A stretch of 64,000 bases of DNA, from assembly GCA_035236585.1 (NCBI GenBank), contig CP141135.1, positions 59,731,690-59,795,689 of the forward strand, in the 5' to 3' direction. Positions 13,268-45,528 of the stretch are shown here, in pieces. The translations under genes and the position numbers were made by a program. Numbering within the stretch: position 1 is the stretch's first letter; every line of letters starts with the position of its first letter. This DNA comes from Warburgia ugandensis. Its lineage: Eukaryota; Streptophyta; Magnoliopsida; Canellales; Canellaceae. The notes under the pieces are model-generated. The model saw only the letters and a list, made by a program, of their open reading frames with translations. It did not search any database and was not told where the DNA came from.

Positions 13268-15007
13268 CTAAGTACTAAATATTCACCGAGTCTAAGGTGA
13301 AAGTCACTTTTAAGGGGCTAAGATCATGTAATTGACTTCTGCTACATAGTGAGCTCAAATCATGGTGGCAATACAATCAGCAAACCCATTGCGTAGCCTA
13401 TCTACATTTAGTATAGAAAATCGAATAATCGGCATCATTAAGAAAAACCCTGGGTCGCAAGTTTGACTGACTACCTTTTTCTTTGGCCGTGGATAAATTA
13501 AGACATGTGAGTGATCTGCTTTGTAATTCTTCGCTAAACTATTGGAATCTTTAACCTAAAAATAGGCGAGACCCTTCTAGAGCCTCTACTAGAAGATTTC
13601 AGCTCGGAAAAGAAAAAAAAAGAAAAAGAAAAGAAAAGAAAAGAAATTCTATACCTGTCTGTGTTCAATAGCGAAGGAGTCTACACTACCTGTTAGGCCC
13701 CACATCTTATTTTTTAAGTGATCCAGCTCGTTCATCTGATCATCCACTTTTCAAAATGGAATGCGACAAAAAATCTCATGCAACAGCTATACCTTTGGTG
13801 AGTTTGGTACTGTGTTTATTCTTAATACCATTCATATTTCAGTCAAACGGCTTAGTGAGAGAAGTCTTGGTACTAACCCATCTTGAGGGGCCACAAAACT
13901 AATGAATGAGTGGGATTATTAAAAAAAGAAAAGAGACTGAGTGACCCTACACATTTATCGGGATCACATTGGTAGGGATATAGGCCCATGCGGCTCCAGC
14001 TTATGTTTCAATGACGGATAACACAGTCGAGCTACCTCCACTCTTTGGTAGAAGCATTTAGCGGGCTTGCATGGGCTCTTAAAGGACTCGGAAAAACAGT
14101 CCAGTTGGTCCGAGAGAGTAGAGTCTACTCCTAGAGCATTTTTCGAAGATCTGGGTCATGCATTTTTTTAAGATCTGAGCCGTTCATCTTTCAAAGCAAA
14201 AGGGAGTATCTAATACAAATTTAGTGGCAGTAGAAGTGTTGCAGAAGGTGGGAGTGTCGGTATCAATAACACATGCTCCTCTCGGATATTAAGCAGCATC
14301 CATCTTGAGTTGGTGTGTGAAAACGCATGCGTTCGTCAAATTAGTGGACAGACCTTTTCACCCTGCCCTAAATCACCACCCTCATATTGATATTGCCACC
14401 CCACACAAGACCAGGTGATGTGATGAGTCGTAAAGCATTCAAATGCTTCACATGCACTGACCTAGTAGAGCGCACCCCCAATACATACTACAAGTAAAGG
14501 TGGTCAGAGTCGCCGGGTTTTGCCTGAAAGGACCCATCACTGGATGATCTGAGGCGTTCGCCGGTTATTCCAGCTTGGATATCTACGGGTGAGGAAAAAC
14601 AAGTGGCTCACGGTGGCATTATTGGTACATCCAATGATGAGATTTTGGCCACGTGGCTCATCTTTAAGCTTTAAGAAAAAGATGGTTTTGGGCCCCACGA
14701 TTTCGGCTACCCACTTGGCCCACAGTACTTTTAGACGGCCGACTATTCTCTTAGTTCGTGGTCTGGCGACCGTTTTATCTAGGACAATAATTTGGGTGGC
14801 ATCGCCATCCTCCCAAGTCGCTGCCTCATCACACCATTTTCCTGCTCCATGATTCCACGCGCGCCCCTTTCTCCATGATTTCTAGGGTTTCCTTCATGCT
14901 CTCCGTGATTTCTAGGGTTTCCTTCTTGCTCCCTTCTTCTCGCTTCCAGCAGCAGAAGAAGTAGCAGAACTGCCAATTCCTGGAGGGACCTCCCCTCTTC
15001 TTCTGCC
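13268..15007. other. Upstream region of the F-box gene, otherwise no gene seen
   Basis: The last few hundred bases before 15008 are pyrimidine-rich on the + strand and form a likely 5' UTR; a short imperfect tandem repeat around TTTCTAGGGTTTCCTTC lies at 14878-14930. No clear TATA box is evident. An A/G-rich tract sits at 13610-13645. The rest is unremarkable. Confidence 0.45.
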
Positions 15008-17176
15008 ATGCCGCTTCAGTGCGGCTCCAGCTTTCTTCTTTGTCTCCCGGACGACGTTCTCTCCCTCATCTCCACCCACCTCCGACCAATAGACCTCTGC
15101 AGCTTGTCCCTCACCTGCCGCTCCCTCCGACCCCTAGCTTCCTCCGACAAGCTTTGGCTCGTCCAATGCCAACTCCTCTCTCTGCTTCCCCTTCGTGACC
15201 TCTCCAAATGGCGCTCCTCTCTCTCCTCCTACAAATCCCTCTGCAAATTCCTCTCCACAATCCGCCCTTTACTCGGCATCTGGGTCCATCAAAACCCCGA
15301 ACTGGGCAATGTCGTCTTCACTATGCTCGGCTTCAATTCCATCATAGGCTGCCGAATTATCCCCCAAGAATTGGGGGAAAAGGGAATCGATGATAGTCCT
15401 CTTCTTTGGGCGCCTGTTTTCGAAATCATTGCCGATTTCGATGGTTCCATCTCTTTCTTCTTCCTCCACGGCCGCGAAAAAGACGCTGATTTCTTCTACC
15501 CTGGCAAGTTGAATTCGATAGAACCCAGTTGCAATGTGCTTTTGTTGGAAGTAGAACCGAATAAACACCCAGAAGATTCGGCAAATATTGGATTTTTACA
15601 CACCAAGAGTCGTAATTTTGGTGACGAGGAGCCCAAGTTGCTAGAAGATTCAGGAAAGAATGGATTTTTACATTCGAACAGTCGTAATTCGCTTGGAGAG
15701 AGATCGGGGAGGGAGATTCGGAGGTCGGAATCTTCACTTTCGCGGTCCCGGAGGATGATTGAAGTGGAAAAGCCAATACCGTTTAACCGTTTGGCATTTG
15801 GGGACCGACGGAAGCTTTTGGAGATTATTGCGATTCAGGTTAGAATGCGAGTGCCTGAGTCATTGGATTGTTGCACTCTGTTTGCACGGTCAGAAGAAGA
15901 TTTTAGTGTTTTATCCGAACGGAGGGAATTGCTTATACAGATGTGTAAGGTCAGAGAGGGGAATGCTGACTGGGAGGGAAATTCGGGGTTATGTTTTGAT
16001 GGAACTCAGATGGAATCAAGTAAGATGAAGAAGATTCTAGATCGCCCAGGTAAGTGGAGTTCGTCAGGTTTGAATGGAAATGAGGGGCATTCCCAGAACT
16101 CAAAGAGGAGAAGTGTTGCTGGGTATTTTAAAGATGGCCTGAAGCAGATTCTGGGGCGGTCGAATTCAGTGAATGGGAGGACTACAATGTTGAGGAATGG
16201 GCATTCTAGTGGTGAGAATAAGCACGTTCCGCTTCAGGAATTTCTGAGAGCAGGCGATTCAATAGGATTGAGTTTACGGGCAGCTACATTAAAGCTAACG
16301 ACGTATCGGGCATGGCCAAATATGCATGATAACCGGTTTGCATTGTATAAGTTGCCATTACGGGCGCCCACAACTGGTCAGGAGTACGCTGGATTATGGG
16401 GTGGAACGATGGGATGGCCTCCTGGGCGGCCCACTGAAGACAAACCCGGGAAGGCCCTGTTTTTTCTTCTGCTTTCTTATGAAGAGTCTGAAGGGCAGAA
16501 GCATCTCATTGCAACCAAGATTTTAGAAGGCACTCATTATGTTCTTCACCCCAATGGCTCCGCAATGTTTATTGTGAATGTTGATGAGCCATCATTGGAT
16601 AAGTTTCCGTGGGATACGGATGGAGACTCCCTCCCTGTGGAAATACAGCATGCTTATAGTGGAGAGGGTATTGCAAATGGGTATGGCTTTAGATATCCTG
16701 GTTCCAAACCAGGTACTTTATTTGTAACTCAGAATGGACTTCTTGCATTCATATGGAAGGAAACTAGAGCTGTCTTGACTTTGCAGAGACTGGAGTTGCA
16801 AGAGCTCCTGAAGAAAGGAGAGAGAGTGCCACCTCTACCTCCAATTGCCAACTTTGCATATTTAACGAAATCCTATTCCAATGTATTTGCAGGCTTTGCG
16901 AGTGCCACAAACTGTTCATCCTTATCAAGGTGTGCTTATACTATCTCTACAGTGAATATTTTAGAAAATTCTGATGCTGCTCTGTTTGTAGCTTGTTGTG
17001 GACATAAAAGGATCATTTGCTTACTGGTCTTCATTAATATCATCAATGGTTTTGCAATCTATAATTTTCTTATCCATCATTGCACAAAACTTATCAGATT
17101 GTATGCTGTTTCCTGTGCTGGCATATTACCAAACAATGCCTTCAATTGTGTATTTGCAGTACTGGTTGTCTTATAG
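15008..17176 (+). CDS. F-box protein, At5g39450-like
   Basis: The open frame begins at an ATG behind a pyrimidine-rich leader. An F-box occupies residues about 9-50 (LPDDVLSLISTHLRPIDLCS and a Trp near residue 50), the surface that binds SKP1 in an SCF ubiquitin ligase. A conserved block follows (LLGIWVHQNPELGNVVF, CRIIPQ, FFLHGREKD), then a Ser/Arg-rich linker (about 185-420). A large conserved C-terminal domain covers about 420-625, with GLWGGTMGWPPGRPTED and TRAVLTLQRL. This resembles the single-copy plant protein At5g39450; its substrate is unknown to me. Conserved coding character ends near residue 640, at a possible donor (CAAG|GTGTGC, 16930). The remaining codons to 17176 look intronic, so the true C-terminus is probably short and encoded further on. 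Confidence 0.82.
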   Translation: MPLQCGSSFLLCLPDDVLSLISTHLRPIDLCSLSLTCRSLRPLASSDKLWLVQCQLLSLLPLRDLSKWRSSLSSYKSLCKFLSTIRPLLGIWVHQNPELGNVVFTMLGFNSIIGCRIIPQELGEKGIDDSPLLWAPVFEIIADFDGSISFFFLHGREKDADFFYPGKLNSIEPSCNVLLLEVEPNKHPEDSANIGFLHTKSRNFGDEEPKLLEDSGKNGFLHSNSRNSLGERSGREIRRSESSLSRSRRMIEVEKPIPFNRLAFGDRRKLLEIIAIQVRMRVPESLDCCTLFARSEEDFSVLSERRELLIQMCKVREGNADWEGNSGLCFDGTQMESSKMKKILDRPGKWSSSGLNGNEGHSQNSKRRSVAGYFKDGLKQILGRSNSVNGRTTMLRNGHSSGENKHVPLQEFLRAGDSIGLSLRAATLKLTTYRAWPNMHDNRFALYKLPLRAPTTGQEYAGLWGGTMGWPPGRPTEDKPGKALFFLLLSYEESEGQKHLIATKILEGTHYVLHPNGSAMFIVNVDEPSLDKFPWDTDGDSLPVEIQHAYSGEGIANGYGFRYPGSKPGTLFVTQNGLLAFIWKETRAVLTLQRLELQELLKKGERVPPLPPIANFAYLTKSYSNVFAGFASATNCSSLSRCAYTISTVNILENSDAALFVACCGHKRIICLLVFINIINGFAIYNFLIHHCTKLIRLYAVSCAGILPNNAFNCVFAVLVVL

Positions 17177-28299: not shown

Positions 28300-30660
28300 T
28301 TGCATTTTCTTATTCGTTTTATGAAGGATTTCTAGTATGCATGTGTCGTCTGCCGATTTTTTATGTTCGATATATGTTTTGCTCTGCTGTTTGTTTCCAT
28401 TTTTTGTTTGTTGATGGATTGGTTCATAACAATCAATAAGGCTGGACATATGAACCAGAGAGGAAATCAGGAAGAGAAGAAAACAGCTTAGAGAACCAGA
28501 GCTCCAAATAAAATCAACGAACTAATTTGTGAATTAATTTTATGAGTATGTCGTCATACTTATGCATGCATCAATCCATTAAATCAGTGGGAACTTCTTC
28601 TCCTCCAATCCTGGCTTCCAGCTTGGAACTGCTTTTCCGGGCCTTCTATGTAGACGCGCCAAAAGATTTGCTTTAGTTATTTTCTCATTGGAACTCCAAA
28701 TCCTTCCACGCTTCCTTTCTAACCTTACTTTCGCCTAAGGCTTTAGCTTGCAACGTCTTAACAGAGTAATAGTTGGAATGGTTTCCATCTGGAAGACATG
28801 GTGTAAGAGAAAACGGAGAAAAGAAAATCTGAATCATTCGTATTGTTCTCTGTTTAAATTGATCTCACATGCTTAAGGTTCATTCCCAATGCTATTGGAG
28901 TAAATTAATTCAGGAAGCCAAGTTATCTTGGTAGACCGATTGTTGATTCTGGAAAATGCATGTGGATTAGTTAAAAGCAACTTCTTCAGCTGGCTCATAG
29001 GTAAGCTTTCAGAAAGAATTGTATCCAACAATTAATTTTGTTCGTCAGATCTTCAGTTAAACTACAATCGAAAAGCCAAAGAGCCATCTTTTTCTTTTAT
29101 CTTTTTCCTGTCTCTTGTTACATTTTTTCTTCTCATTTTACTTTGTAACATAGCCGTGTTTTCTCATCCGTTTACCTTTTATGCTTTCCTATGACTTTGA
29201 TAGGTTCATAATTTCCCATTTCATTTGTTCTTTCATTTTCTTGTTATTTCTATTGTTTGTAAGTGTGGCACCGTTCAGATTTTTGCTTGGTTTCATGGTG
29301 TAGATGAAGAGTTATACATTATAAAAGTAAATAGAAGACAGATTAAAAGATCAGAAAAATAATACGAGATCTTATCCTAATAAGTGTATTGGACAGCTGT
29401 GCTTTGTAATTTAAAAAAAAAATTTATGTCTTCTGTATGAGACACCTGAATGCCTGTTTCAGACTGACTTGCTCAGTGGGAGGGCATAAATGCGCACAAG
29501 CACTCCACAAATACCAAAATTATATGTAATAACAGCAACCTTGTGAGTTGGATTTATCAGCATTGCAACAAATAAACCTATGATTTGATTCTGACTATGT
29601 CAACTTGAAAGATTGTTTAGAGCATGGTATGAAAACTGGTTCACTCTGTGCAGAACTCGGTCAAGTCAATATGGTTTAAAATCTTCCTCATTTTTGCCTT
29701 TTGGACTCTCTGAGTTTTGCCAAGTCCTAGATAAGAGCTTTTCTGGTGGTAAAAATAGGCCAGTATATCTGCCACTAAAAATTATAGCTTTTTGTCTGCA
29801 TCTGCTGAGTACTTGCCTCTGTTAAGCCTCATCAATTCCTTTTGACAAAGTATGCCTGTGTCAGCATTTTGAGTTTTGACAGTATATTAGAGTAAACTCT
29901 GTATTTTGAGTAGATGTTATGATTTCCTTACAAAGATTGGGAAGGTCCATCTCTTTCGTACTTCATAGTTTGGATACCCAGGCTACATTATTGTTTTTTC
30001 ATGAATGACAGGTACATACACCCATGAACAGTCTTGAACCCTGGTCACCCAGGTGAGAGACGACTCCTCACGCCATTGCAATTAGAAGGCTTTGGTTCTT
30101 GGATACCCATGTTACATGATCTGTTTTCTTTTGAATTTCTTCTAGGAATGTTCAGAGCTGATTCTATTGTTTATGGCAAAGTCATTTCAAAACTTCATAT
30201 GACCTATATTATTAACAAGATGTATAGGAGTAACAATTTACTGCAGTTCTTAAACCCATAATAGCACACTTCACAAAAGAGTGATTGAAGTACATCCAGG
30301 GAATCCATCTAAAATATATCCACTTATTGGTTGCAAAAGAAATATTCATGAGATTCTGAGTGGCTTTTTGGTATTGGTTTTGTAGATAATAGTTCGGTCC
30401 TTGATGTGGTACTGGAAAATCTGCCCTTAGGCTTCACATTTAGATTCAGACTTTATAGGAAATTGCCATATCCTTATGCATGTTATAGAATCTATAACAG
30501 TTGCCCCAGATTTCACTTCCATCTAAATTCACAATCAGCTTATTATTTCATGTATTTCATAAAATAAACAGTCTGCTGTTCTGCAAAGTTACAAGGCACA
30601 TTAGTGGGAAGTAGATGTTGTTTACTTAAATATGGAATATTGCATATTTTATCAAATTTT
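28300..30660. other. Probable first intron of the NRPD7-like gene
   Basis: T-rich DNA with no coding frame recognised. The only structure seen is the SINE-like insertion near 30 kb. Confidence 0.4.
29999..30098 (-). mobile_element. Short tRNA-like SINE insertion
   Basis: On the - strand TGGCGTGAGGAG (box A-like) precedes GGGTTCAAGAC (box B-like) by about 35 bases. The roughly 100-bp block is flanked by imperfect 29-bp direct repeats starting TTGGATACCCA at 29970 and 30099. The family is not recognised. Confidence 0.5.
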
Positions 30661-30689
30661 TTCTTGTGTTCTCTTCACAGATCCCAAAT

Positions 30690-31220
30690 ATGTATCTTGA
30701 GATAGAAATGCAAGGGAATGTGTTACTCCCCCCTCAGGAGCTACACGGGAAAGGGCTTCTTCTCCAGCGTGCTATCATCCTACATCTTCTAGAGGACATT
30801 TCAAACAAAAAAGCAAGCAAGGATCATGGTTACTTTCTCGCAGTCACTACCCTCAATAGTATTGGAGAGGGAAAGGTCAGGGAGCTTACAGGTGATGTGC
30901 TTTTTCCTGTAGTATACAGCTGTATCACCTTCAAACCTTTCAAGGGAGAAGTCTTACAGGGTATAGTGGACTCTGTCCTAAAGCATGGGGTCTTTCTAAA
31001 GTGTGGACCAATAGAAAAGATATTCCTATCAACAAAAGCAATGAAAGACTACAAATTCGTCCCAGGAGACAATCCGGTATTCTTGAGTGAGAAGCAGTCT
31101 AAACTTGAAAAGGATGGGCTGGTGCGGTTCAAGGTGCTAGGATGGAGGTGGTTGGAATCTGATAGGGAATTCCAATTGCTTGCTACTCTGGATAGCGATT
31201 TCCTGGGTCCAATATCATAG
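30690..31220 (+). CDS. NRPD7: RNA polymerase IV/V subunit 7-like (NRPD7/NRPE7)
   Basis: A single coding exon of 176 codons. The acceptor ATAG-free CTTCACAG at 30673-30680 supports starting at ATG 30690 (MYLEIEMQGN) rather than further upstream. The protein has the RPB7-type layout: an N-terminal RNP-like half with GKGLLLQRAIILHLLEDIS and the conserved IGEGKVRELTGDVLFPVVY, then a C-terminal OB/S1-like half with GEVLQGIVDSVLKHGVFL and PGDNPVF. Length and motifs match plant Pol IV/V subunit 7, which pairs with subunit 4 in the stalk of the polymerases of RNA-directed DNA methylation. Pol II NRPB7 is the alternative, but the diverged N-terminus and the LGPIS end favour the IV/V paralogue. Many such plant genes have an intronless coding region, as here. 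Confidence 0.87.
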   Translation: MYLEIEMQGNVLLPPQELHGKGLLLQRAIILHLLEDISNKKASKDHGYFLAVTTLNSIGEGKVRELTGDVLFPVVYSCITFKPFKGEVLQGIVDSVLKHGVFLKCGPIEKIFLSTKAMKDYKFVPGDNPVFLSEKQSKLEKDGLVRFKVLGWRWLESDREFQLLATLDSDFLGPIS

Positions 31221-32170: not shown

Positions 32171-32716
32171 GAACAATCTTTGGAAGTCTGTTAAAAAAAT
32201 TTCTGTCTGCATTGTGGAGCTTCAAAGTTTTAGTTGCAGCTGCTCCTTAGGCTATGACTAGAGACTCACAAATTATGAACTACCAAAGTACTGTAGTTCA
32301 CTGTTTATTTTTTTGCTTGAGTCCTATTCTCTGGATAGTTCAAGCATAGTCCCTAATCTTTTGCAAGCACTACATCAGTTGTTGTGAACATGCTTATCAA
32401 TTCTAACTATGGTTCGCATATCATGTAGTGTGAACCAAACCCGAATTTGATTGAAACTGAGATATTGATGCAACCGTTTGTATCAGAAAGATTCTTATTG
32501 CAAAGAGGCTGACAATAAGTTCTTTCATAATTGACAATTTCTTGTATTTCAGAAATGTTTGCTATTAGATGCTGAAATAACTCATGTCAAGCATTTTTTA
32601 TTATCCAGTTGAATGATTCTGCCATACTAATAGGGGCGGCAAAATATGACACGACATGATAACACGACTTGAACCCGACAAGAATTTAGCGGGTTCGGGT
32701 TGAGTCTTATCGTGTT

Positions 32717-32749
32717 CGTGTCATTTTTGGGTGACCCAAAAATGACACG
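32717..32749. repeat. Perfect 33-bp palindrome in the hAT left subterminal region
   Basis: CGTGTCATTTTTGGGT is followed by one G and then its exact reverse complement. CGTGTC words recur through both subterminal regions, so this may be a doubled transposase-binding site. Confidence 0.85.
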
Positions 32750-32851
32750 CTAAAAATCGTGTGTGTTCGAGTTAATGAATTTGACTTGTCGTATCGACTT
32801 GTTTGACACGCGACCTATTTACTCATGACCTTGACAGTGACACGATTTGAA

Positions 32852-33053
32852 AATATAGGACGGTTCATGAGTAATCGTCCTATATTACTAGTTATATAGG
32901 ACGGCTATTCACAAACCATCCTATATTTTCAATTATATATAGGACGGCTATTCACAAACCGTCCTATATTAATAGTTATGTATAGGACGGCTATTCACAA
33001 ACCGTTCTATATTACTAGTTATATAGGATGGCTATTCACAAACCGTCATATAT
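32852..33053. repeat. Palindrome array 1 (5 units)
   Basis: Five units of the form ATAGGACGGCTATTCACAAACC ending GTCCTATA-like, spaced 36-46 bp. Each unit is itself an inverted repeat (ATAGGACGG...CCGTCCTAT). It lies between the left subterminal region and the Ulp1-type gene. Confidence 0.9.
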
Positions 33054-33673
33054 TACTAAGTTATATTAGAGGGTTCTTTTGGAGCCACTGTTAGTGAGTT
33101 ATTCTCACACATATAATATAAAGATATTCTCAGAGGAACAGCTTCTTTCAGGTTCTCGTTGACATTCGTGTGCATCTTAGAGAATATGAAAAGAAAGCAA
33201 AGACATGAGAGTGACAAACTATAAACAGGAATTCACAAAATATAATCCAAAAATCTGTGATTCAAGATCTGAATGAAGCAGGATTTCCTGAAATGTAAGC
33301 CGAAGCAACTTCACCTTCCAGTTTGCAAGCTTATGATAAAACACATTTGATTGGCAATAGATAAGTGAAAGCTTGCAAACATGATATGATTACAACGAGT
33401 GGAACTTCCTCATCCCTCTTTTTGTTCATGCAAACAATTGTGTCTTCTGATTGTCAGAAACTTGGTAGCTCAGAATCATGGGCTCCAATCATCACAATTG
33501 CCCAACATATCAATCACTTAGCACCATCTCCATGACTATATCATTCCAATTGTCAATAGGCCCAGGCAGGCACCAATGCAGACAATCATTCTGAACTTTG
33601 ACATTTTTAATTTTATCCTCAGCAAATGGATAAAATTGCCTGTATAGGCCGGGATGTCCATCATGTCTCGATT

Positions 33674-33990
33674 CAAAACACCAACTTCACAATCACATCA
33701 TTGAAATTTGAAAGTTTATTGGTATCATGTTCATATGAATCATCATATCTACAACTTCAGTATATATAAGTAATTTCAATCATCAACCTCCATTCCATAT
33801 ATGCCTCCCTCTCCAATACATGATACAATACATGATATCAACCACCCATACTGTATCTGTAGACTGTATGTACATACATGATACAATACAACCCATCTGC
33901 TGATCTAAGCCATCATTGAAAATTGATGATCAACCCATCTGCTGATCAAAACACCAACTTCACAATCACATCATTGAAATTTGAAAGTTT
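33674..33990. repeat. 44-bp direct duplication
   Basis: An identical segment beginning CAAAACACCAACTTCACAAT occurs at about 33674-33717 and 33947-33990, in the noncoding part of the composite element downstream of the Ulp1-type gene. Confidence 0.75.
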
Positions 33991-34153
33991 GAAACAAAGA
34001 AAGCACATACATTGATACAGTGCACTTCAATTATTCAATCAAAAGAAAAATAGAACACATTCATTGAAATGAACTGATCTTTGTATTATATTTAAGTAAA
34101 ATGTATATACATGAATGATAATATACATTCATTTATAATTTTACATCACTGAA

Positions 34154-37100
34154 CTACAAATTAAAATTCATAATATGATATGTCCATTCCATTCTAATAT
34201 CATCTAGATCCAACTGGGAGTAACTCTTGGTTCCAAAATTTGCCTGCAAGAAACATATAATAACTTAGTTCAGAGATCAGACATATAATCTTGGATTCAG
34301 TCAGGAAATATACAAATCAAAAGTGTAACTTTGGTCAGTAAGTCTAAGTGTTACCTTTCTCAATTGTGAGACTGTAACTCCATTGCGAATGAGGGTTCTC
34401 ATGTATCTAAGAACATAATATCCACACTCCCAATCTGATTTTTGGTTAGGGCACTGCAGAACAATGCCACCAAAGATAACAGAAAAGTTTCAAAATATAA
34501 TTTCTAATAAGTTCAGGTTTAAAATTATATCAAAGAGTCTAAAGAGTAGTAATTAGTAAACTGTACCTTGGCCTTCTTCCAGTTGAGTTTTGGTGGGTGG
34601 TGAATGCCTTCCCTCTCATCCCATTTATACCATGCTCTACACACATATAATTGAAAAGCATTAGATTATGAATATTATTATAGTTGCCAGGTGAGTAGTT
34701 ATATTATAATAAAAGGAATAATAAAGACTTACTTGTTTATAATTTCCATAAGGTGTTCTCGAATGTGTGCTCCACATGAATAAAAAAAAATTGCATGGCC
34801 ACCATGCACATCCAAAGCTAGCAACATCCAATGGGACCTATAAAAATAATAATTCAATTGAATTTTCTCTAATCTTAACTGATATAGTATTCATGTGTAT
34901 GAATTGTGAAATTAAAATGGCATAATTAAGCAACCTATGTTACAATGTACCCGCTATTGTAGGGAATCAGTAAGGCTTGCCCCTTCGCACAACTCATGAG
35001 ACTAGGAATGATATCTTCAGTTTGTTTGTCCTTAGGCAAATAGTTCAATTGAAAGACAAGAGAAGGGTCAAGGAACTTGTAAATGTCCTTGACCTCTAGT
35101 CTTTACAAGCTATCATGCAAATACCTGCATTTGGAATTTGGGTTAATGTCAAATAATTATTAAGTTTTATTAAAAAAGCAAGTATTAAGTAATGTTACAT
35201 TGATTCGTAAGTCTTAACTCTAATAGAGCAGTTACACGACGTATCCTATATAGACTATGATGTGCATGTACTCCAATTGATCTATATTACATATGGCTAA
35301 GAGGTCTTCCTTGAAGAGTGGAACCTCAACCACATCGTTTGAAAGCACACCGGCCTCTATCCTTACAGGATTCATTGTATTTGTGTTGCTTTCATTGGCC
35401 AGTCTTTACAGTACCCTTAGGAATGGAGGTGTGTTAGGTGGAACCTTCACCTGATCCCTACACTGTAGATGTAATCATGTAACATTTTAGAAATTAGTAA
35501 TGAATATATACAACATATACTGATATACTAGTAGATATAAAAGAAGAGACACAATGAGGTAAAATTAGAATATTTTATAATATAACATTGTGACTACTGA
35601 CTTGTGACTTGTGAGTAGTGACTAGTGAGCACCTAACAAGTGCTTTGAACTTGTTAGTTGTTGCATCGTTCAAGTTCACATGTAACATGATACAACGATG
35701 CAAAAATATAGAACTAGTACTACATGGGAAGGCTGGGATGTGGCTACACTTGCTACTACGCCAAAATTTGCCGGCAGCAAGGTTTGCTTCAATTGCCCAT
35801 TGTGCTGCTTTTGGTGATCCGACATGTTGCAGACAATATTAATCAATGAATAATTTAGGACGACTTAAAAAAAGATAGGAGAAAATGAAGCCATGACTAC
35901 AGTTAGTATATATGTACCTTGGAATTGGATATCATTGGTTTTATGTGTTTCTCTGGCCAACACACATGATATCTAATTGCATCCCCAATAGTTTCAACAT
36001 CACCCCCTTCGACTGGAAATGGATGGGGAGCATCTAGTTGAATGGCAGCAGTGATGCACACACGCTTAGTGTGTGGAGGTATCAACTTACCATGCAAGGT
36101 GGCGGAAGTCATGGGCCGAACCTCATACAGTGTTGCCACAGCCACATGGTTCTCAAATGTATGTAGCTGCAACATGCACTGACCCACCTGCATTTGAGAA
36201 ATGACATATATATAATAATTAGTGATGTAATGTAAAGTGTAAACTAAAAAGGTTAGTAAATAAGTAACATTGTAAAACTAAACAAGTGAATATACATACC
36301 TCACTGATTGGGAGTACTTGTTCTGCCACCTCTTCATCTGATGGAGGATTAGGAGTAGGAGTGCAGCTATTATTAAATTGGGGTGGTTGAACTTGAGATT
36401 GAGCTTCAGCTTGAGGGCCGCCAACATCCTCACATGAGGTTCTTCCGCCACCTTGGATTTCCTTCAACAGTTGATCTTTGATCTTGCTATATATCTCCAC
36501 AACTGTTTGCTTCTTCCATTCTTCCAATTCTTGTAGCGTAGGAACCTTTTGTTTTGGGAAGAATTTGGAAGGAACAACACCTCGACCTTGGCCCCTTACT
36601 CAGCCAGGGTGCTCATTCTTGTTACCCATTGCCCTATACAGGATGTCCCCCTTTGCAGCAGTGCTGCTAAGAGTCCCTGTAGTTGCACTTGCACTCTCTT
36701 GGGTCAACTCTTCCTGCACACATAAAGATCATAGCATAATAAAATCACTATTATATATGTAATATTTAAATAATATGCTATGCAAGGGTGTAAAAGTATA
36801 AAAGTATTTAACTAGGCAGTATGCAGATAAAGTAAAAGTATAAAACTTAAAGTCTTAAACCACTTACAATTCTTGAAGCAATTGCTGCAGTTGTCTCGTT
36901 GGCAAAGGTATGGGAGTTACGCCCTTTCGAATGTGCCATTTTCATTAGAATAGCACGGTCGATGGGCTCCGTTGTCCCACCTTCTTTTGCTGTAATAAGA
37001 GACACTAAGTTAGAGTTAATAAATAAAAATCTACTATGATTAGACAAATGGAATGTGACATGATATACTTACTACATCTGCCTCTAATCGTGCATAGCCA

Positions 37101-37973
37101 ACCTTTGAAAGGTGGTGCGGCGTATGGTTCTGTCCATGCGCCTTCTGTCCTTTTATATGCTTTGCCTGGACATCAAAGTAATGTGATCAAAATACAATCA
37201 ATTATAATAATTACAAAAATCAAAATTTAGCTTGGCTAGTTGAAGTTGTGATTACCTCAAAATCAAGAGATAGCCTATAATGTACAGATTGATTCCAAGC
37301 TTCCTGGTCAATGAAGCAGGAATACAACTGAGGGACCATGTTAAGCATAGAAGGATCATGGGAATTTGGAAGTATGTACTTCCTTGCAAGCTCACTCTTC
37401 CATTTCCTCCAAGCTTCACCAGCTCTTAGCAATGCTTGCTTCTTGCACTCATCAGATACGTCAAAGGTAGACTACAAAACAAAAGAAGAAGCATGTTAAA
37501 GTGACTAACTTACTAGTGAGTATTATAGCAACTTTGTGTATCTTATCGTGATTCATATGCAAACAAAAACAAAATATATAAATATAAAGGACATATTATG
37601 TTATATGTAGGAAGAATTTACATACCTTGACCATTTTCCATATTGAATCTTTGACTTGTGGTGATACATGTCTCCAATCAGTCACTGATACTGGTACAAG
37701 TCTTCTAACAGTGCAACATATGAAGCTAGCATAGGCATGTGCAGCACCACCAATCGGTTGGCCTTTAGTGTTGAATTGTACCGTTTCTTTTATTCCAACT
37801 GAGGTTCTCTTATTTATACGATCCATTTGTGTTGGCCCCCTCCCCCTGACCTTTCTCTTGACACTGACCGGTGGTGTTACTGATGGACATGTGCTTGATA
37901 GCCTTGATTGTTTTGCTTCTGTGTATTGTAATTGTTCTACTTGTACCTCTCCTACCTCTTCTACTTGCTCCAT
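34154..37973 (-). pseudogene. Ptta/En-Spm-type transposon protein fused to Ulp1 (C48) protease
   Basis: Exons with compatible phases: 37973-37626, 37471-37256, 37165-37069, 36989-36868, 36713-36300, 36187-35918, an unresolved middle, then 35124-34951, 34837-34733, 34636-34567, 34453-34355 and 34243-34154 (stop). The N-terminal half resembles plant Ptta/En-Spm proteins (DEAWNQSVHYRLSLDFE-like region, HPG*VRGQG block, then a C-terminal PFPV...WPEKH block). The last exons form a Ulp1 cysteine-protease domain: GSHWMLLALDV supplies the catalytic His and following Asp, and QKSDWECGYYVLRYM the Cys. In-frame stops occur at 36602-36600 (TGA, a likely CGA-to-TGA change in GRVRGQG), 35408-35406 and 35105-35103 (both TAA). 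The active-site residues are still present. Such genes normally belong to CACTA or MULE elements; here it sits within hAT ends. Confidence 0.75.
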
Positions 37974-39201
37974 GTTTGCTTCACAAATAAAAATGACTAT
38001 AGTTAGACAAGAAAAGTGGAATACAGGGATAATAAGCAGTAGCACCCTTGAACCATCACAAAATTTTCATTGGACACTATATTGGAAGCCTCCTACAAGG
38101 TCAGATTGTTGCTCCCTCTCTCTCTTCAAACAAGCAATTATGCTTGTTCCCAATTTTTGTGATATTGGCATAGCCCCAGAAGTATGCCATTCCAGTATGC
38201 AGAGTGGAACAAAAAATGTGATATTTTGTTTTTGTATAACATTCATTATTTCCAGATTGATTTGGCCATTTCATTAAGTTTCCTATCTCAAAACAGTCAT
38301 TCCAGTCTAATAATAATAATAAAATCTATTCTGTTCCTTCATCCTTTATTTTTTCTCTTGGTTAACTATCACTTAATCATTCCTCTTGTTTCAACAGTTC
38401 CAACACATAAAAAATGTTGAAAATCTGACACTGTTTGATGCAGATATGTTAATTTTAGTTTTTGAGAAATTTTTCTTGATTTGGTTCTTTTTTCTAGGGC
38501 TCCCTTAAGGAAAAGAAGAAATTGGGATATAAGCTCTAGCTAGTTTGTGATAAATTAGATAAAGGTAACGTTTTTGTCCATTTTGTAAAAGAAAGAACTA
38601 GTTTAATGTCTCTCTCCCTCAATCTTGTGTCCTACTTCCTCTACATTTCAGCTGACAACTATTTTAGTAGATGCAGTTCTCTGAGAACCTATTTATCAGC
38701 ACTATGGGTAAAGTTAGAACCTTTATAATTTATATGTTTGGTTTTTCCGTGAGAGGAACCTATCTCCCATTCCACTTCCAGCTTCATTTTTTTTTTGCTC
38801 ATCCATCTTTTTCCCAACAAACCCCGTTTCCAGACCCAAATGAAAGACAACATAAATCGAAATCTGAGAAATAGGTGTTTGAGAATGAAATGACAGAATA
38901 AGTTCAAGGCAAGGATCAGAGAAACCAGACAGAGGTTTTTTTTATATCAGATTGTGTTCTTTTATTACTTTTTACGATTTTTACAGAACTGTATACGTAA
39001 TTACATTATAGATGCAAAAAATCGTAAATACATACCTTTCTTTGCTTAGATTTGTGAAAGATCGAAGAGGAATGGTCGTTTTCACCTTCTCAGTATAGGT
39101 TGGATTGGATCGTTGGGTTGGAACTTGGAAGATTGAAATTAGGGCTGAGAATGACCAAGGTGAAAACTGAAAGTGAAAACGATATATGATATATATAGAA
39201 C

Positions 39202-39570
39202 AATATAGGACGGTTTTCAAATAACCGTTCTATAATATATTTAAATATAGGACGATTTTTCAATAACCGTTCTATAATATACTTAAATATAAGACGGTTT
39301 TTCAATAACCGTTCTATAATATATTTAAATATAGGACGATTTTCAAATAACCGTTCTATAATATATTTAAATATAGGACGATTTCTAAATAACCGTTCTA
39401 TAATATATTTAAATATGGGACAGTTTTAAAATAACCATTCTATAATATATTTAAATATAGGACGGTTTCAAAATAACCGTTCTATAATATACTTAAATAT
39501 AGGACGATTTTTAAATAACCGTTCTATAATATATTTAAATATAGGATGGTTTGTTTATAACCATCCTATT
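39202..39570. repeat. Palindrome array 2 (9 units, 42-bp period)
   Basis: Nine near-regular units ATAGGACGRTTTT..AAATAACCGTTCTATA separated by an AT-rich spacer (TATATTTAAAT). The array is immediately upstream of the Ulp1-type gene's 5' flank, and an AT repeat follows at 39576-39597. Confidence 0.92.
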
Positions 39571-39614
39571 CCTATAATATATATATATATATATATTGAA
39601 ATATAGGAGTTGTA

Positions 39615-40315
39615 TAAGCTATAAGAGTTATGTATTTAATTAATCTTAGTTGAGGATGTGCTTAAATAAAACTAGTTATTAAGTATAGAGTAAAGAAAGA
39701 GTTATGTAATTAACTCATCTTAATTTCCTTAAGGATGAGCTTAAAAAGATAGAGCATATATGTTCATCTCAGACTCAGACTTCTCAGTTGAGTATCTATC
39801 AGCTTAAAAACAAAGTTATGTAAGTAACTCATACTGTCATATTCAATTCAACATAGTTGTTGAGGTTGAGGTCAGCTTGGTCAGGGGAGGATGAGTAAAG
39901 TAAGTGTTAATTATGTATATAATGTATTTAACTCATCTGATGATCTCAGTTGAGGATCAGCTTAAAAAAGCAAAGTTATGTAAGTAACTCATACTCAATT
40001 CAAAAGTTGTTGAATGTTGATGATAACATTGATAAATGATAAGTAAAGAAAGAGAAAGAGTCATATAATTAACTCATTAGGTAAGAATGACTAAAGGAGA
40101 ATAGAAACAGTTATGTAATTAACTCAGTAGCTTGAGAATGAGTATAGAAAGAGTTGTGTAATTATCTCATTAGAGGATAATGAGTATAGTATAGGAACTA
40201 GGAACTAGAAAGGGTCCTAAGGGAATAGTTATTAGTTATGTAACATTGTAATTAACTAATTAGGTGAGGTGAGAATGGGAATAGAGAATAGGAGTTGTGT
40301 GTTGAATTAACACAA
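39615..40315. repeat. Interspersed palindromic motif GAGTTATGTAATTAACTC
   Basis: About ten diverged copies occur near 39623, 39699, 39814, 39910, 39973, 40059, 40109, 40151, 40240 and 40291. Most are preceded by an A/G-rich run such as AAAGAAA or TTAAAAAAGCAA. The motif is a palindrome (GAGTTA, a centre, TAACTC). The spacing is irregular (40-120 bp), so this is not a simple tandem repeat. Confidence 0.7.
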
Positions 40316-40319
40316 ATGT

Positions 40320-41300
40320 TAAATGATATTACTAAGGGAGTTACTAAATTTTACCCTACAATGTCTACATGAATGATGGATCAATGGATCATGGATGAAT
40401 GAGTTATTCCTAATATATTATCATCAATTGGGAGTTAGAAATGAGAAACAAATATTGAGTTATATAAGTTGGATACATGATATTCATGAATTTGATTAAA
40501 AAGAGATATATTAGATCAATTGGTTGGTGAGACATGTGAAATTAACATAAGAAAATCATTATTCATTAGCATTTATAATTTTATACAACAATACATGATA
40601 GTTAGTTAGTCTCTCACTTCACTTTTACTTGTGCAAGTTACAAAACTTGGTTAACTAATTATCTACTAAGTGTAACTTGTAAGTTGTAACAACTGACAAT
40701 GTGTAGCTAAACTTAAAATGGTTGATAAGAAATTATGTTGTACAGTTATTTATAACTTATAGTTATAGGCTTATAGATATAGTTATAGCAAACAACCAGC
40801 CAGCCAGGCTAGCCCTAGGCTAGGGCTCTTTAGGGATAAGACTTCAAATTCAATTGGATAATTGGATTTGGGCTTACTTAACTTACATGATACAATACAA
40901 TTATACAAAAAGACAAAATAATTGCCTTAGACAGTTATATTAGACTCTAGATTGACTTAGTAGACCTAGATAATTATTAATTAGTTAAAGTTAAACCTTT
41001 ATGTTCTTTTCAATTTTCAACTTTCATTTTGTTTTTCCGCCACTACAAGGGGGCCCCACACCTCAGATCATCTATCATCTAACAAGTAACATCAAGGACA
41101 TTGACTCAAAATATTTGACAAATGATTGAAGTGTAAGTTTCAACTTTCATTAACTCCAGTTGCCACACTTGCCACTTGCCAGTTTAGAATTGGAGGAAAG
41201 AAAGCTATCAGTCCCTGTCAGGTAGACTGGTCACTGGAAATCTGACACATCACAGACTTCACAGTCACACTCACAGATTGGTAATGAAGGAATAAACCAT
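40320..41300. other. Noncoding interior of the composite hAT element
   Basis: AT-rich, no open frame of interest. A CACTACAAGG occurs at 41041, reminiscent of CACTA ends, but no partner end was found. Confidence 0.5.
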
Positions 41301-41307
41301 GTGTAAA

Positions 41308-41590
41308 ATAGGACGGTTAGTCCGTAACTGTCCTATATTCTTATGTAAAAATAGGACGGTTAGTGTATAACCGTTCTATATTTAGACAATATAGGACGGT
41401 TAATATATAACCGTCCTATATGTTAAAACTATATTTACAAAAAATAGGACGGTTAGTAAGTAACCGTTCTATATTGTCTAAATATAGGACGGTTAACACA
41501 TAACCGTTCTATATTTTAAAAATATAGGACGGTTAATACATAACCATACTATATTTTATAAATATAGGACCGTTAATACATAACCAACCT
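41308..41590. repeat. Palindrome array 3 (7 units)
   Basis: Seven units ATAGGACGGTTARTRYATAACCGTTCTATA, ending about 115 bp before the transposase start codon. The last two units are degraded (CCATACTATA, CCAACCTA). Confidence 0.92.
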
Positions 41591-41704
41591 AAGCTTGAAG
41601 CTGCTTTTATAATTTACAATTTTACATCTGTTTCAGATTTTCCTTTCGGAAGGACCAGAATCCAGATATCTTCTTCAAGTTCAAACTTCAACCCTTCTAA
41701 CACG

Positions 41705-44291
41705 ATGAGCAGCAGCACCCCTACTACAGCACTACAGGTATGTCATGTGTTTGTTTTTTGTTATTTCTTTATGAAATTATGAGTCTGACTCTTTTCATTC
41801 CTCACTCTCAAGTCTCACTCCCTTCCCTTATTAGTAATTGTTGGTGAAGTGTTTAATTTACTGTTAGTGTGAACTAATTTTTTTTTGTCATTTGCATTTT
41901 GCAATATAGGGACAAGTTGAAGTTGGGAGCAGGAGCACTTATGTTTCTGATAACTTGAATATGCTACACCACAACAACGATGATGATGAACTTGCTGATT
42001 TGGAGAACGTGGAGTTAGTTTCAAAATCCAATAGAGGTAAAAAGCATAGGAAACTAATGTCTTCCAGTTTTGGAATTTTTTTGAACACCTTCCTCTATCA
42101 GAAGATGGAAGGAAAAGGTGTAAATGCAAGAAGTGCTCTACAATATATATTTGCGATAGCAAATTTGGTACTAGTAACTTAAAACATCATATAAAGACTT
42201 GTCAACGGAGCTCTTCTTGTGATATAGGCCAGTTACTTTTATCTCAAAGTCAGGAGAGTATGTCACTAAGTGCAGCTTTAGATAATAAGTTTGATCCTGA
42301 AGTTTATCGTGAGTTAGTAGTAGCTGCAGTTGTTATACATGATTTGCTTTCCAATTTGTTGAGTATGATGGAATTAGAACTCTACTGAAATATTTGCATG
42401 CAGATTTGCACTTGATTAGCAGAAATACAGTAAAAACACATGTTCTGAGAATGTATAAAAGAGAAAAAGGAAAGATAAAAGAGATGTTAGAGTTGGCACC
42501 TAGCAGGATAAGTTTGACATCGGATTTGTGGACTTCTTGTATTATTGATAGTTATATAAGTCTCACAGCACATTTGTGAGATAGTCAGTGGGTCTTACAA
42601 AAGAGGATATTAAAATTTTGTTTCCTACCACCTCCACATAATGGAATATCATTAGCAGAAAAGGTATACTCATTATTGGTAGAATGGGGGATTGAGAAAA
42701 AGATTTTTTTAATCACTTTAGACAATGCTTCTGCTAATGATTCTTCTATTGAGTTATTAAGGCATCAATTAAACATCAGGAACACTCATGTTTGTGGTAG
42801 AGAGTTCCTTCATCTATGTTGTTGTTGTCATGTTTTGAATTTGATTGTGCAAGATGGTTTGAAAGAAATTGATGATGCTATTTAAAAAATTAGAGAGAGT
42901 ATCAAGTATGTCAAAGCATCACAAAGTAGAAAACAAAATTTTTTAGAGTGTGAATCACATGTCAATTGAGACAAAAAAGGGCTTAAGACAAGATTGCCCT
43001 ACAAGATAGAATTCAACGTATTTGATGCTTGAAAGTGCTCTTTGTTACCAACGTGTATTTTGTCACTTAGAACTAAGTGACTCAAATTATAAGCATTGTC
43101 CTTCTTTCAATGAATGGGAAAAGGCTACAAAAATTTTGAAGTTTTTGGCAATTTTTTATGATGCCACCTGCATGTTCTCTGAATCCAAGTATCCCACTAC
43201 AAATCTCTACTTTCGTGCAGCATTTGTAATTTATTTGAGTTTAACATAATACATGAGAAGTGATGATGACTATATGAAGCGTATGTCCACCCAAATGTTT
43301 GCCAAGTTTTCAAAGTACTGGTCTGAATTTAGCACCATTTTGGCAATTGCATGTGTGTTGGATCCTCGGTATAAGCTCTCCTTTGTGGAATTCTCGTACA
43401 AGAAATTGTTTGGCAGTGGCTGCTTAGAGTTTGCTCAAGTTAGGGAAAAGTTATTCTCTCTCTTCAATGAATATATGATTAAGATTTATCCTATTCCTTC
43501 CTCTTCATCTTCCCCAGTGGCTAGAGGTGCAAAAGTCTTGATGATGTAGAACATGTCATATAGTCAAGAGGTTTTAGATTTCATGAAGCTGATTTTATTT
43601 ATAATTGTATCTTTCATTATATGTCGCTTACTCCTTAGCATATTAAAATTTGCTATGAATTGTCTTATAGTACGTTGAATAATATAATTGCATTTGCATT
43701 AGGAATTTGATTCATTTGACAGTGAAGGAGGTACTTTGGCTATGCAAAAATCACAATTGGAGCTTTATTTGGATGAACCAAGATTGCAAGAGTCAAAGCT
43801 AGACATTCTTGCATTCTGAAAAGGCAATCAATACAGATTGTTTGACTAATAATCTCATGTAAACACTATTTTATGTAATCTTATTTACATTTATATTTGA
43901 TTCAAATGTTGATTTTAGATATCCTGAACTTGCTGCCATGGCTCGTGATGTCTTGAGCATTCATATATCTATAGTTGCATTGGAGTCTGCTTTTAGTGTT
44001 GGTGGTCGAGTTCTTGACCAATATAAATCTACTTTAAAGCCAGATACCGTGCAAGCATTGATTTGTGTGAGAGATTGGCTATATAGATTGAAAGGTAATA
44101 GTTTATAATTCTATATTTACATTATATTTTATATGAGCTTAGTAATAACTAATGCGTGTTTATTCTATATGATTGTAGACTCTACCAGTACAGTTGCCAT
44201 GGATGAGCTTGCTGAGGACATTGTAAGCATAAGTAGCACTGCAGGATCACTTCAACCAATTGAAGACTCTGGATCAATTCATTTTGATTAA
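41705..44291 (+). pseudogene. hAT transposase (BED finger, hAT_C dimerisation), disabled
   Basis: Start ATG 41705 (MSSSTPTTALQ, donor after 41738); the second exon begins near 41910. A BED zinc finger follows in a shifted frame (FWNFFEHLP, CKCKKC, LKHHIKTC; 42070-42205), so a one-base deletion lies near 42070. The RNase H-like core includes LTSDLWTSCI and TLDNASAND, and LRQDCPTR before a lost Trp. The C-terminal dimerisation region is present (YPELAAMARDVLS, ESAFSVGGRVLD, ALICVRDWLY; 43919-44092). In-frame stops lie near 42580, 42884, 42968, 43013, 43246 and 43817. The last exon ends ...IHFD with TAA at 44289-44291. It is the natural transposase family for the enclosing ends. Confidence 0.85.
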
Positions 44292-44808
44292 TTTGTATAA
44301 TTTTCATGACTTATTTTAATTTGTTGTGTTTGATACATAATACATTGATGGAAGTATATTTCCCTTATGTGCTACTTAATCCATATTTATTTACTACAAT
44401 TGTGGTTATTTGATTCATTTTAGTCTCTTTTACATATCATGTGAATTGTGAACTTGTGAAGTGAGTCAGTGAGTGGTGTAATACTAAACTATAAAGAACT
44501 GTGTTGCTTCTAAATAAAATAATAAAATATTACAGGAACATTATTGGTAATTTGGTTGTCTATGTACTTGTCGTGTGGATCAGTGGATATAGCAATGACC
44601 AATGACAATGAGCATGAAAGGAGTTGGAGAAATGAATTCCTTCCTAACAATTTATGTGGGGGTTGGGTTGAAAGTTTAGTTGTTCATAACTGAAAGACCC
44701 ATACTATTGAATTCTGATTTTCTGCTCCAGAACCTCATTGTCATTGCTTCAGGTGATCAAAGATACAATTCAGTCAGAATCAGAAGATCAGTCACAATGG
44801 TGGAGTAA

Positions 44809-45097
44809 AATATAGGACGGTTATTTCATAACCATTTTATAAAACCTGTAACATATAGGACGGTTATGAAATAACCGTGCTATAAAACATAACATATAGG
44901 ATGGTTATTTCACAACCGTTCTATAAAATCCGTAACATATAGGACGGTTATGAAATAATCGTACTATAAAACGTAACATATAGGACGGTTATTTCACAAC
45001 CGTCCTATAAAACCAATGATATATAGGACGGTTATGTCACAACCATCCTATATGTTAGGATTTTATAGAACGGTTGTGAAATAACCGTCCTATATGT
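44809..45097. repeat. Palindrome array 4 (7 units, alternating orientation)
   Basis: Seven units of ATAGGACGGTTA...TAACCGTCCTATA. The centre alternates between GTTATTTCA-AAC and GTTATGAAATAAC, which are reverse complements. Neighbouring units are therefore mostly inverted relative to each other. It lies between the transposase and the right subterminal region. Confidence 0.9.
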
Positions 45098-45528
45098 TAG
45101 TTTATTGTGGTTGTTTTGGGCCTTGGCAGTGGTTCTATTCACTTGGGAGTTGGGAGAGCAGTTTTTTTAATATGTCGTGTCGTATCATTTCGTGTCGTGT
45201 ATCCAACACGACTCAGTCAATTAATCGTGTTACTCAGGTCGTGTCGTGTCATTTTTTTAAGAATCGGGTCATATACGAGTCATAGGTTTTTGACACGACT
45301 ATTAAGCGTGTCGACCCGTAACTCTATTCGTGTCGTGTTCGTGTCGGCACAAACACGACCCGCCAACCCGAATTGCCACCCCAACATACTAAGAGTGAGG
45401 TAAATGATGAACTGAAGAACTTGTTTAGTCACCGCGGGAAGTGCTTTGTTTTTAGTTTTTCTTTCCATGGCTTTTCTTCTTCTTCATTTTTCTTTTTTTT
45501 TGGGGGGGAGTGGCGGCGGGGGGCGTAT

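Follow-up and report, generated by a model that had tools for sequence, protein, structure and literature searches.

A hAT transposon family of Warburgia ugandensis with a second, TnpA-like Ulp1 gene and one dyad repeated at element ends and gene starts

Two divergent genes and four dyad arrays in one hAT insertion

The window analysed here is a 64,000-nucleotide stretch of the Warburgia ugandensis genome (assembly GCA_035236585.1, contig CP141135.1, positions 59,731,690 to 59,795,689; coordinates below are those of the window), in which a DNA transposon of 12,754 bp occupies positions 32,631–45,384. The element is flanked by a perfect 8-bp target site duplication (TSD), i.e. CATACTAA at 32623..32630 and again at 45385..45392, which bears out the single insertion proposed in a preliminary description of this DNA. 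Its terminal inverted repeats (TIRs) are short: the left one, TAGGGGCGGCAA (32631..32642, plus strand), and the right one (45373..45384, minus strand), which reads TTGGGGTGGCAA inward, agree at 10 of 12 bases, and the right terminus is TTGCCACCCCAA, with its last base at 45384. Inside the TIRs lie a left subterminal zone (32643..32850) with GACACGA/TCGTGTC motifs, found in the right zone too, and a right subterminal zone (45100..45372) with TCGTGTC motifs. By the features tested, i.e. the 8-bp TSD, the short TIRs and the domains of its transposase, the element is a hAT transposon.

The hAT transposase gene, modelled by hand on the plus strand (41705..44291), encodes a BED zinc finger (42065..42202; zf-BED, 3.6e-4), a hAT-like RNase-H fold (43178..43474; PF14372, 1.2e-27) and the hAT C-terminal dimerisation domain (43917..44081; Dimer_Tnp_hAT, PF05699, 1.7e-20), the latter two being present also in the hAT gene of a second family copy, L010 (5e-27 and 2.6e-22, respectively). 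No MULE domain was detected by Pfam in the exons scanned from the window copy and L010, and the TSD has 8 bp, compared with the 9–11 bp of MULEs.

The other gene, here called Ptta-Ulp1, is a multi-exon gene on the minus strand (34355..39180), for which a hand model predicts a 5' leader with a splice donor near 39037 and an ATG near 37973; this splice donor is retained in seven of eight aligned copies. Both genes are decayed and broken in the window copy, and the domains of Ptta-Ulp1 are best seen in L010, in which PF03004 (Transposase_24, Ptta/En-Spm) was found at 1.5e-13 and 51.5 bits (cut-off 28.7), indicating a TnpA-like protein, and PF02902 (Peptidase_C48) above its cut-off at 4.2e-9. When the exons of the window copy were scanned separately, C48 reached 0.0027, under its cut-off, and PF03004 was not detected. 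The Transposase_24 region, mapped onto the window exons from residues 171–306 of L010, lies at 36576..37309, and the Ulp1 (C48) catalytic region at 34376..35102, both on the minus strand and both interrupted by introns. The arrangement of a minus-strand Ptta/Ulp1 gene and a plus-strand BED/hAT gene, as first described, is thus upheld by the Pfam domains of L010 and of the window, respectively.

The Ulp1 region of L010 matches SENP5 (E 1e-5). The His-Asp-Gln-Cys set of active Ulp1/SENP SUMO proteases is incomplete in both the window copy and L010, which keep His, Gln and Cys and have Tyr at the position of Asp. This codon specifies Tyr in 75 and Asp in 25 of 100 listed copies of a Ulp1 exon tag (271 in the genome, see below), so the full set is found in a minority of copies. 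The prevalence of Tyr suggests that most listed copies probably descend from a version of Ulp1 lacking the Asp, and that protease activity may be dispensable.

Four arrays of a common dyad, ATAGGACGGTT-N7-AACCGTYCTAT, surround the two genes and comprise 28 dyads in the window element. Array 2 (39205..39569; nine dyads with a 42-bp period) lies on the 5' side of the Ptta-Ulp1 gene, adjoining a TATA-like stretch and the 5' leader, and array 3 (41308..41592; seven dyads, the last degraded) lies on the 5' side of the hAT gene, stopping 113 bp short of its first ATG. Arrays 1 (32855..33051; five dyads) and 4 (44812..45093; seven dyads, the first degraded) are subterminal, i.e. inside the element ends and past the 3' ends of the two divergent genes. 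Judged by these positions, each end and each gene start of the element bears the same dyad, a refinement of the earlier description of each gene as enclosed by two arrays of the same palindrome. Outside the four arrays the window holds no further array, just three single weak look-alikes.

The half-sites of the dyad have a fixed spacing. In the window element, 26 of the 28 dyads were detected as pairs of 11-nt half-sites at an exact offset of 18 nt (7-nt centre), and those at 41564 and 44812, with a degraded right half, were positioned via the spacing; between arrays, half-sites and spacing are constant and centres and linkers vary. Across eight full elements, 202 of 249 plus half-sites are partnered at offset 18, three at another offset and 44 are unpartnered within 8–30 nt; the corresponding numbers for 11 short copies of the family are 118, 8 and 28 of 154. 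In full elements, successive dyads are most often 42 apart, a step of about four turns of B-DNA. Over 206 dyads, the half-site columns are 0.85–1.00 conserved, save one C/T position (0.49), and the centres 0.48–0.71, a contrast that is partly built in because half-sites entered the selection of sites. As expected of a plant element, the dyad pattern was absent from the viral and prokaryote contigs searched.

Both genes diverge from a central region of about 1.7 kb (39571..41300). Within it, at 39626–40169, another short dyad-like repeat, AGTTATGTAATTAACTCA, occurs eight times (up to four mismatches).

Recurrence and joint inheritance of the composite

The genome of the window (1.12 Gb, 14 contigs) was searched for further copies. 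The exact left end TAGGGGCGGCAA occurs at 450 places, compared with 10 for a reversed control pattern; these are end places rather than elements, as some short copies bear the 12-mer at both ends. The first eight loci returned all have at least three dyads within 3 kb. From 100 listed places, 20 were sampled, about every fifth, and 10 kb inward of each was fetched. The Ptta-Ulp1 gene was found at nine of these left ends (L009, L010, L011, L012, L013, L016, L018, L021 and L027) and is therefore carried by other members of the family, and in seven of the nine, dyads at array positions 2 and 3 lie within the 10 kb; in L016, array 3 has a single dyad above threshold.

The latter seven copies were followed to the right end, and all of them contain the hAT gene, array 4 and dyads at all four positions. 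Six of them have a perfect 8-bp TSD of their own (CTTTCAGG, CTTCCAAT, CTCTCTAG, CCCCTACG, TTGTCAAC and CTTTGAAC), end in TTGCCACCCCTA and are 13,137–13,400 bp long, and the terminal pair TAGGGGCGGCAA/TAGGGGTGGCAA is present in six of the seven; in the seventh full copy, L027, the right junction is damaged. The full copies are independent insertions of one composite unit, and the joint recurrence of the Ulp1 cassette and all four arrays, which the preliminary description had proposed as a check, is observed in each of these end-to-end elements. A search for the empty site matched only the two flanks.

The copies without a Ptta-Ulp1 gene are mostly short. In nine of the 11, a right end was seen whose TSD matches the left one (six at 8/8 and three at 7/8), giving lengths of about 2.6–4.4 kb; for L015 the right end was not seen, and the sequence fetched for L024 did not include the flank. 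The central region from which the two genes diverge is matched over 86–100 % in nine of the 11 (L015, L017, L019, L020, L022, L024, L025, L026 and L028), as if it were needed in cis or as if a single founder had spread. L023, an internal-deletion copy with a right-end TSD of 7/8, still has array 4 and, of the hAT gene, the 3' half. A piece of hAT gene lies past the right end of L022 (5117–6459), probably belonging to a neighbouring family member. No complete hAT gene without Ptta-Ulp1 was found in the 10 kb from any of the 20 sampled ends.

There is more evidence for the composite unit from exact 23-mer tags, which count 271 for a Ulp1 exon and 416 for a hAT exon in the genome. On C1–C3, 33 of 65 Ulp1 tags are accompanied by a correctly oriented, exact left end at up to 4 kb and no tag by a wrongly oriented one (random mean 0.04), and 31 of these 33 distances fall within 2.12–2.41 kb; of the 32 remaining tags, 20 were probed and 12 have a diverged left end. 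On C1, C2 and C3 to 88.05 Mb, a divergent hAT tag lies within 20 kb of 45 of 64 Ulp1 tags, with one in the wrong orientation (random 0.23), and 33 of the 45 pairs are spaced 8.16–8.37 kb apart. Seen from the other gene, 45 of 100 listed hAT tags are paired with a Ulp1 tag, and for 37 an exact left end lies at most 16 kb away. A further 21 places, picked for their resemblance to a query that covered the two genes, are biased and were not used as a rate.

Evidence in the same direction is given by the comparison of eight copies. Pairwise distances correlate between the regions (r 0.71–0.93, p 0.002–0.03; Mantel r 0.71, p 0.03 for the two genes), and the window copy, L018, L021 and L010 form one clade in the trees of all three regions, showing that the two genes were largely inherited together. 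The ratio of mean dN to mean dS over the 28 pairs is 0.56 for Ptta, 0.78 for Ulp1 and 0.64 for hAT, with 28, 24 and 27 pairs, respectively, below 1. The stops of the window copy in two Ulp1 exons occur in none of the seven other copies.

Elsewhere in the window, open frames matching a twin BRCT domain (1341–1778), an F-box domain (14909–17176, 755 codons) and an SHS2_Rpb7-N domain (30630–31220, 1.4 kb upstream of the insertion) were noted.

Origin and possible role of the Ptta-Ulp1 gene

hAT elements are usually regarded as single-gene systems. The family resembles plant hATs such as Ac/Ds and Tam3 in its 8-bp TSD, short TIRs, BED, RNase-H and dimerisation domains and subterminal motifs, and differs from them in its size of about 13 kb, the second, divergent gene and the dyad arrays of fixed spacing near ends and gene starts. 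With En/Spm and other CACTA elements (En-1, Tgmt*, Cactavine) it has in common the Transposase_24 domain, the palindromic subterminal arrays and the Ulp1 domain, whereas its ends, 8-bp TSD and transposase are of the hAT type and no TnpD was found nearby. In the passages available, En-1 is described with a pfam03004 domain, and CACTA elements with arrays of palindromic (stem-loop) subterminal repeats regarded as binding sites of an element protein (PMC2613891); in grapevine, Ulp1 is reported from MULE and CACTA families, among them five CACTA families (PMC2528002).

Ulp1 sequences are found beside other recombinases as well. According to the parts of the sources consulted, KAONASHI and other MULEs carry a Ulp1 gene or domain beside the transposase (PMC2528002, PMC13317346), in contrast to our family with MULE transposase and ends, and these passages mention no Transposase_24 part. 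Similarly, Ginger1 has a Ulp1 domain (PMC2836005) and oomycete Cryptons a C48 domain (PMC3212892), joined to or beside integrase-like or tyrosine recombinases and not a hAT transposase, as far as the excerpts describe them. An excerpt of one study reports an amplicon that contains hAT repeats as well as a Ulp1 gene, not demonstrated to form one element (PMC5240378), and the main text of a review (PMC13317346) does not contain the word hAT. Among the matches listed in a full-text literature search, which covered sources in part and had Repbase outside its scope, no hAT with a Ulp1 or Transposase_24 gene was found. The novelty is the second gene and the operator plan within a hAT.

Taken together, our data suggest, with a probability of roughly 0.7, that the window element is a decayed member of a large hAT family with two genes, in which a captured TnpA-like Ulp1 gene became a standard component, its product likely reading the ends and both promoters. 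The transposase would, as in known hATs, cut at the 12-bp ends and insert with 8-bp duplications. The Transposase_24 gene with its C-terminal Ulp1 region would probably be of CACTA ancestry, and the dyads with their fixed spacing are most likely the binding sites of its product. With dyads close to each end and at each gene start, a single protein could join the element ends and control both genes, similar to the role proposed for the CACTA DNA-binding protein at subterminal repeats. It is tempting to speculate further, and this more specific version is tentative, that the hAT became bipartite: the transposase would cut, and a captured TnpA-type protein, with a mostly Asp-less Ulp1 region that may bind SUMO or a partner, would read operators at ends and gene starts. 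If true, a regulator from one cut-and-paste superfamily would have been adopted by another, unrelated one, which then distributed the operators of this regulator over the element.

Several observations weigh against this two-gene reading. The Ptta-Ulp1 gene is missing from 11 of the 20 sampled ends, so short copies need no such gene in cis. For eight of the 20 probed Ulp1 tags the 901 bp fetched contain no left end, an exact hAT tag is lacking within 20 kb of 19 of 64 Ulp1 tags, and of the 100 listed hAT tags 55 lack an exact Ulp1 tag and 48 lack both a Ulp1 tag and an exact left end, figures that neither show nor exclude hAT-only elements, since copies with mutations escape exact 23-mers and 12-mers. 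Each of the eight aligned copies has one or more in-frame stops in the modelled exons, hence none of these is intact, and some stop sites are common to two copies (L011 and L027, L018 and L027, L011 and L013). The dN/dS of these decaying copies is weakly below 1, weakest for Ulp1, and the three region trees disagree outside the common clade. A donor of the Ptta-Ulp1 gene was not found; the genome search with PF03004 matched nothing, but neither did its controls. Finally, the protein that binds the dyads could instead be a host protein or the hAT transposase, through its BED finger.

A rival reading is that Ptta-Ulp1 was captured once and amplified along with the hAT without a function of its own, the dyads serving the hAT transposase alone. 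Captured fragments are common in plant DNA transposons, as stated in the portions consulted (PMC2528002, PMC13317346), and both the abundance of gene-less copies and the Tyr codon in most listed tags fit a passenger. This explanation is nevertheless unlikely, considering that the gene is multi-exon, that every one of the 28 Ptta pairs has a dN/dS below 1, that identical dyads stand at the gene's own start, and that a complete hAT gene on its own was not seen at the sampled ends. Still less probable is that the arrays are chiefly targets of a host factor or of hairpin small RNAs, with the Ptta-Ulp1 protein countering SUMO-dependent silencing. The arrays are indeed palindromic and located at gene starts, and transposon Ulp1 domains have been proposed to act in transposition (PMC2836005, in the part available), but the fixed 7-nt centre is more in keeping with binding by a protein dimer than with a long hairpin, and the catalytic Asp is replaced in most listed copies.

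The preliminary description had left the choice between capture of a foreign gene by a hAT and insertion of a second element. Our data favour the capture, as the probable course of events, and speak against simple nesting at the window site: a CACTA element nested in the hAT was rejected since the composite recurs at many other places with hAT-type ends and TSDs. CACTA elements are at hand in this genome, with abundant TnpD (Transposase_21; 150 places scored of 5074 candidates), yet none of the scored TnpD lies within 20 kb of the 140 listed Ptta/Ulp1 places, some of which belong to one element, and the nearest is 27.6 kb away. Nor were CACTA-like inner ends seen among the best 40 of 148 candidate pairs, and the ends and TSDs of the full elements are of the hAT type, not CACTA/G termini with a 3-bp TSD. 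As far as checked, the signs of simple nesting named in the preliminary description were not found. Nesting of a CACTA or other element is refuted for the window copy; it could describe only an ancestral event and is a very remote prospect.

A high-copy hAT with a CACTA-type regulator, as the two-gene reading has it, would show that a regulatory half and a catalytic half from different transposon superfamilies can be combined. The contribution of TnpA-like and Ulp1 proteins to transposition, an open question, becomes testable in this family, for which the genome of W. ugandensis supplies natural copies by the hundreds, some having and some lacking the second gene, together with a clear predicted binding site.

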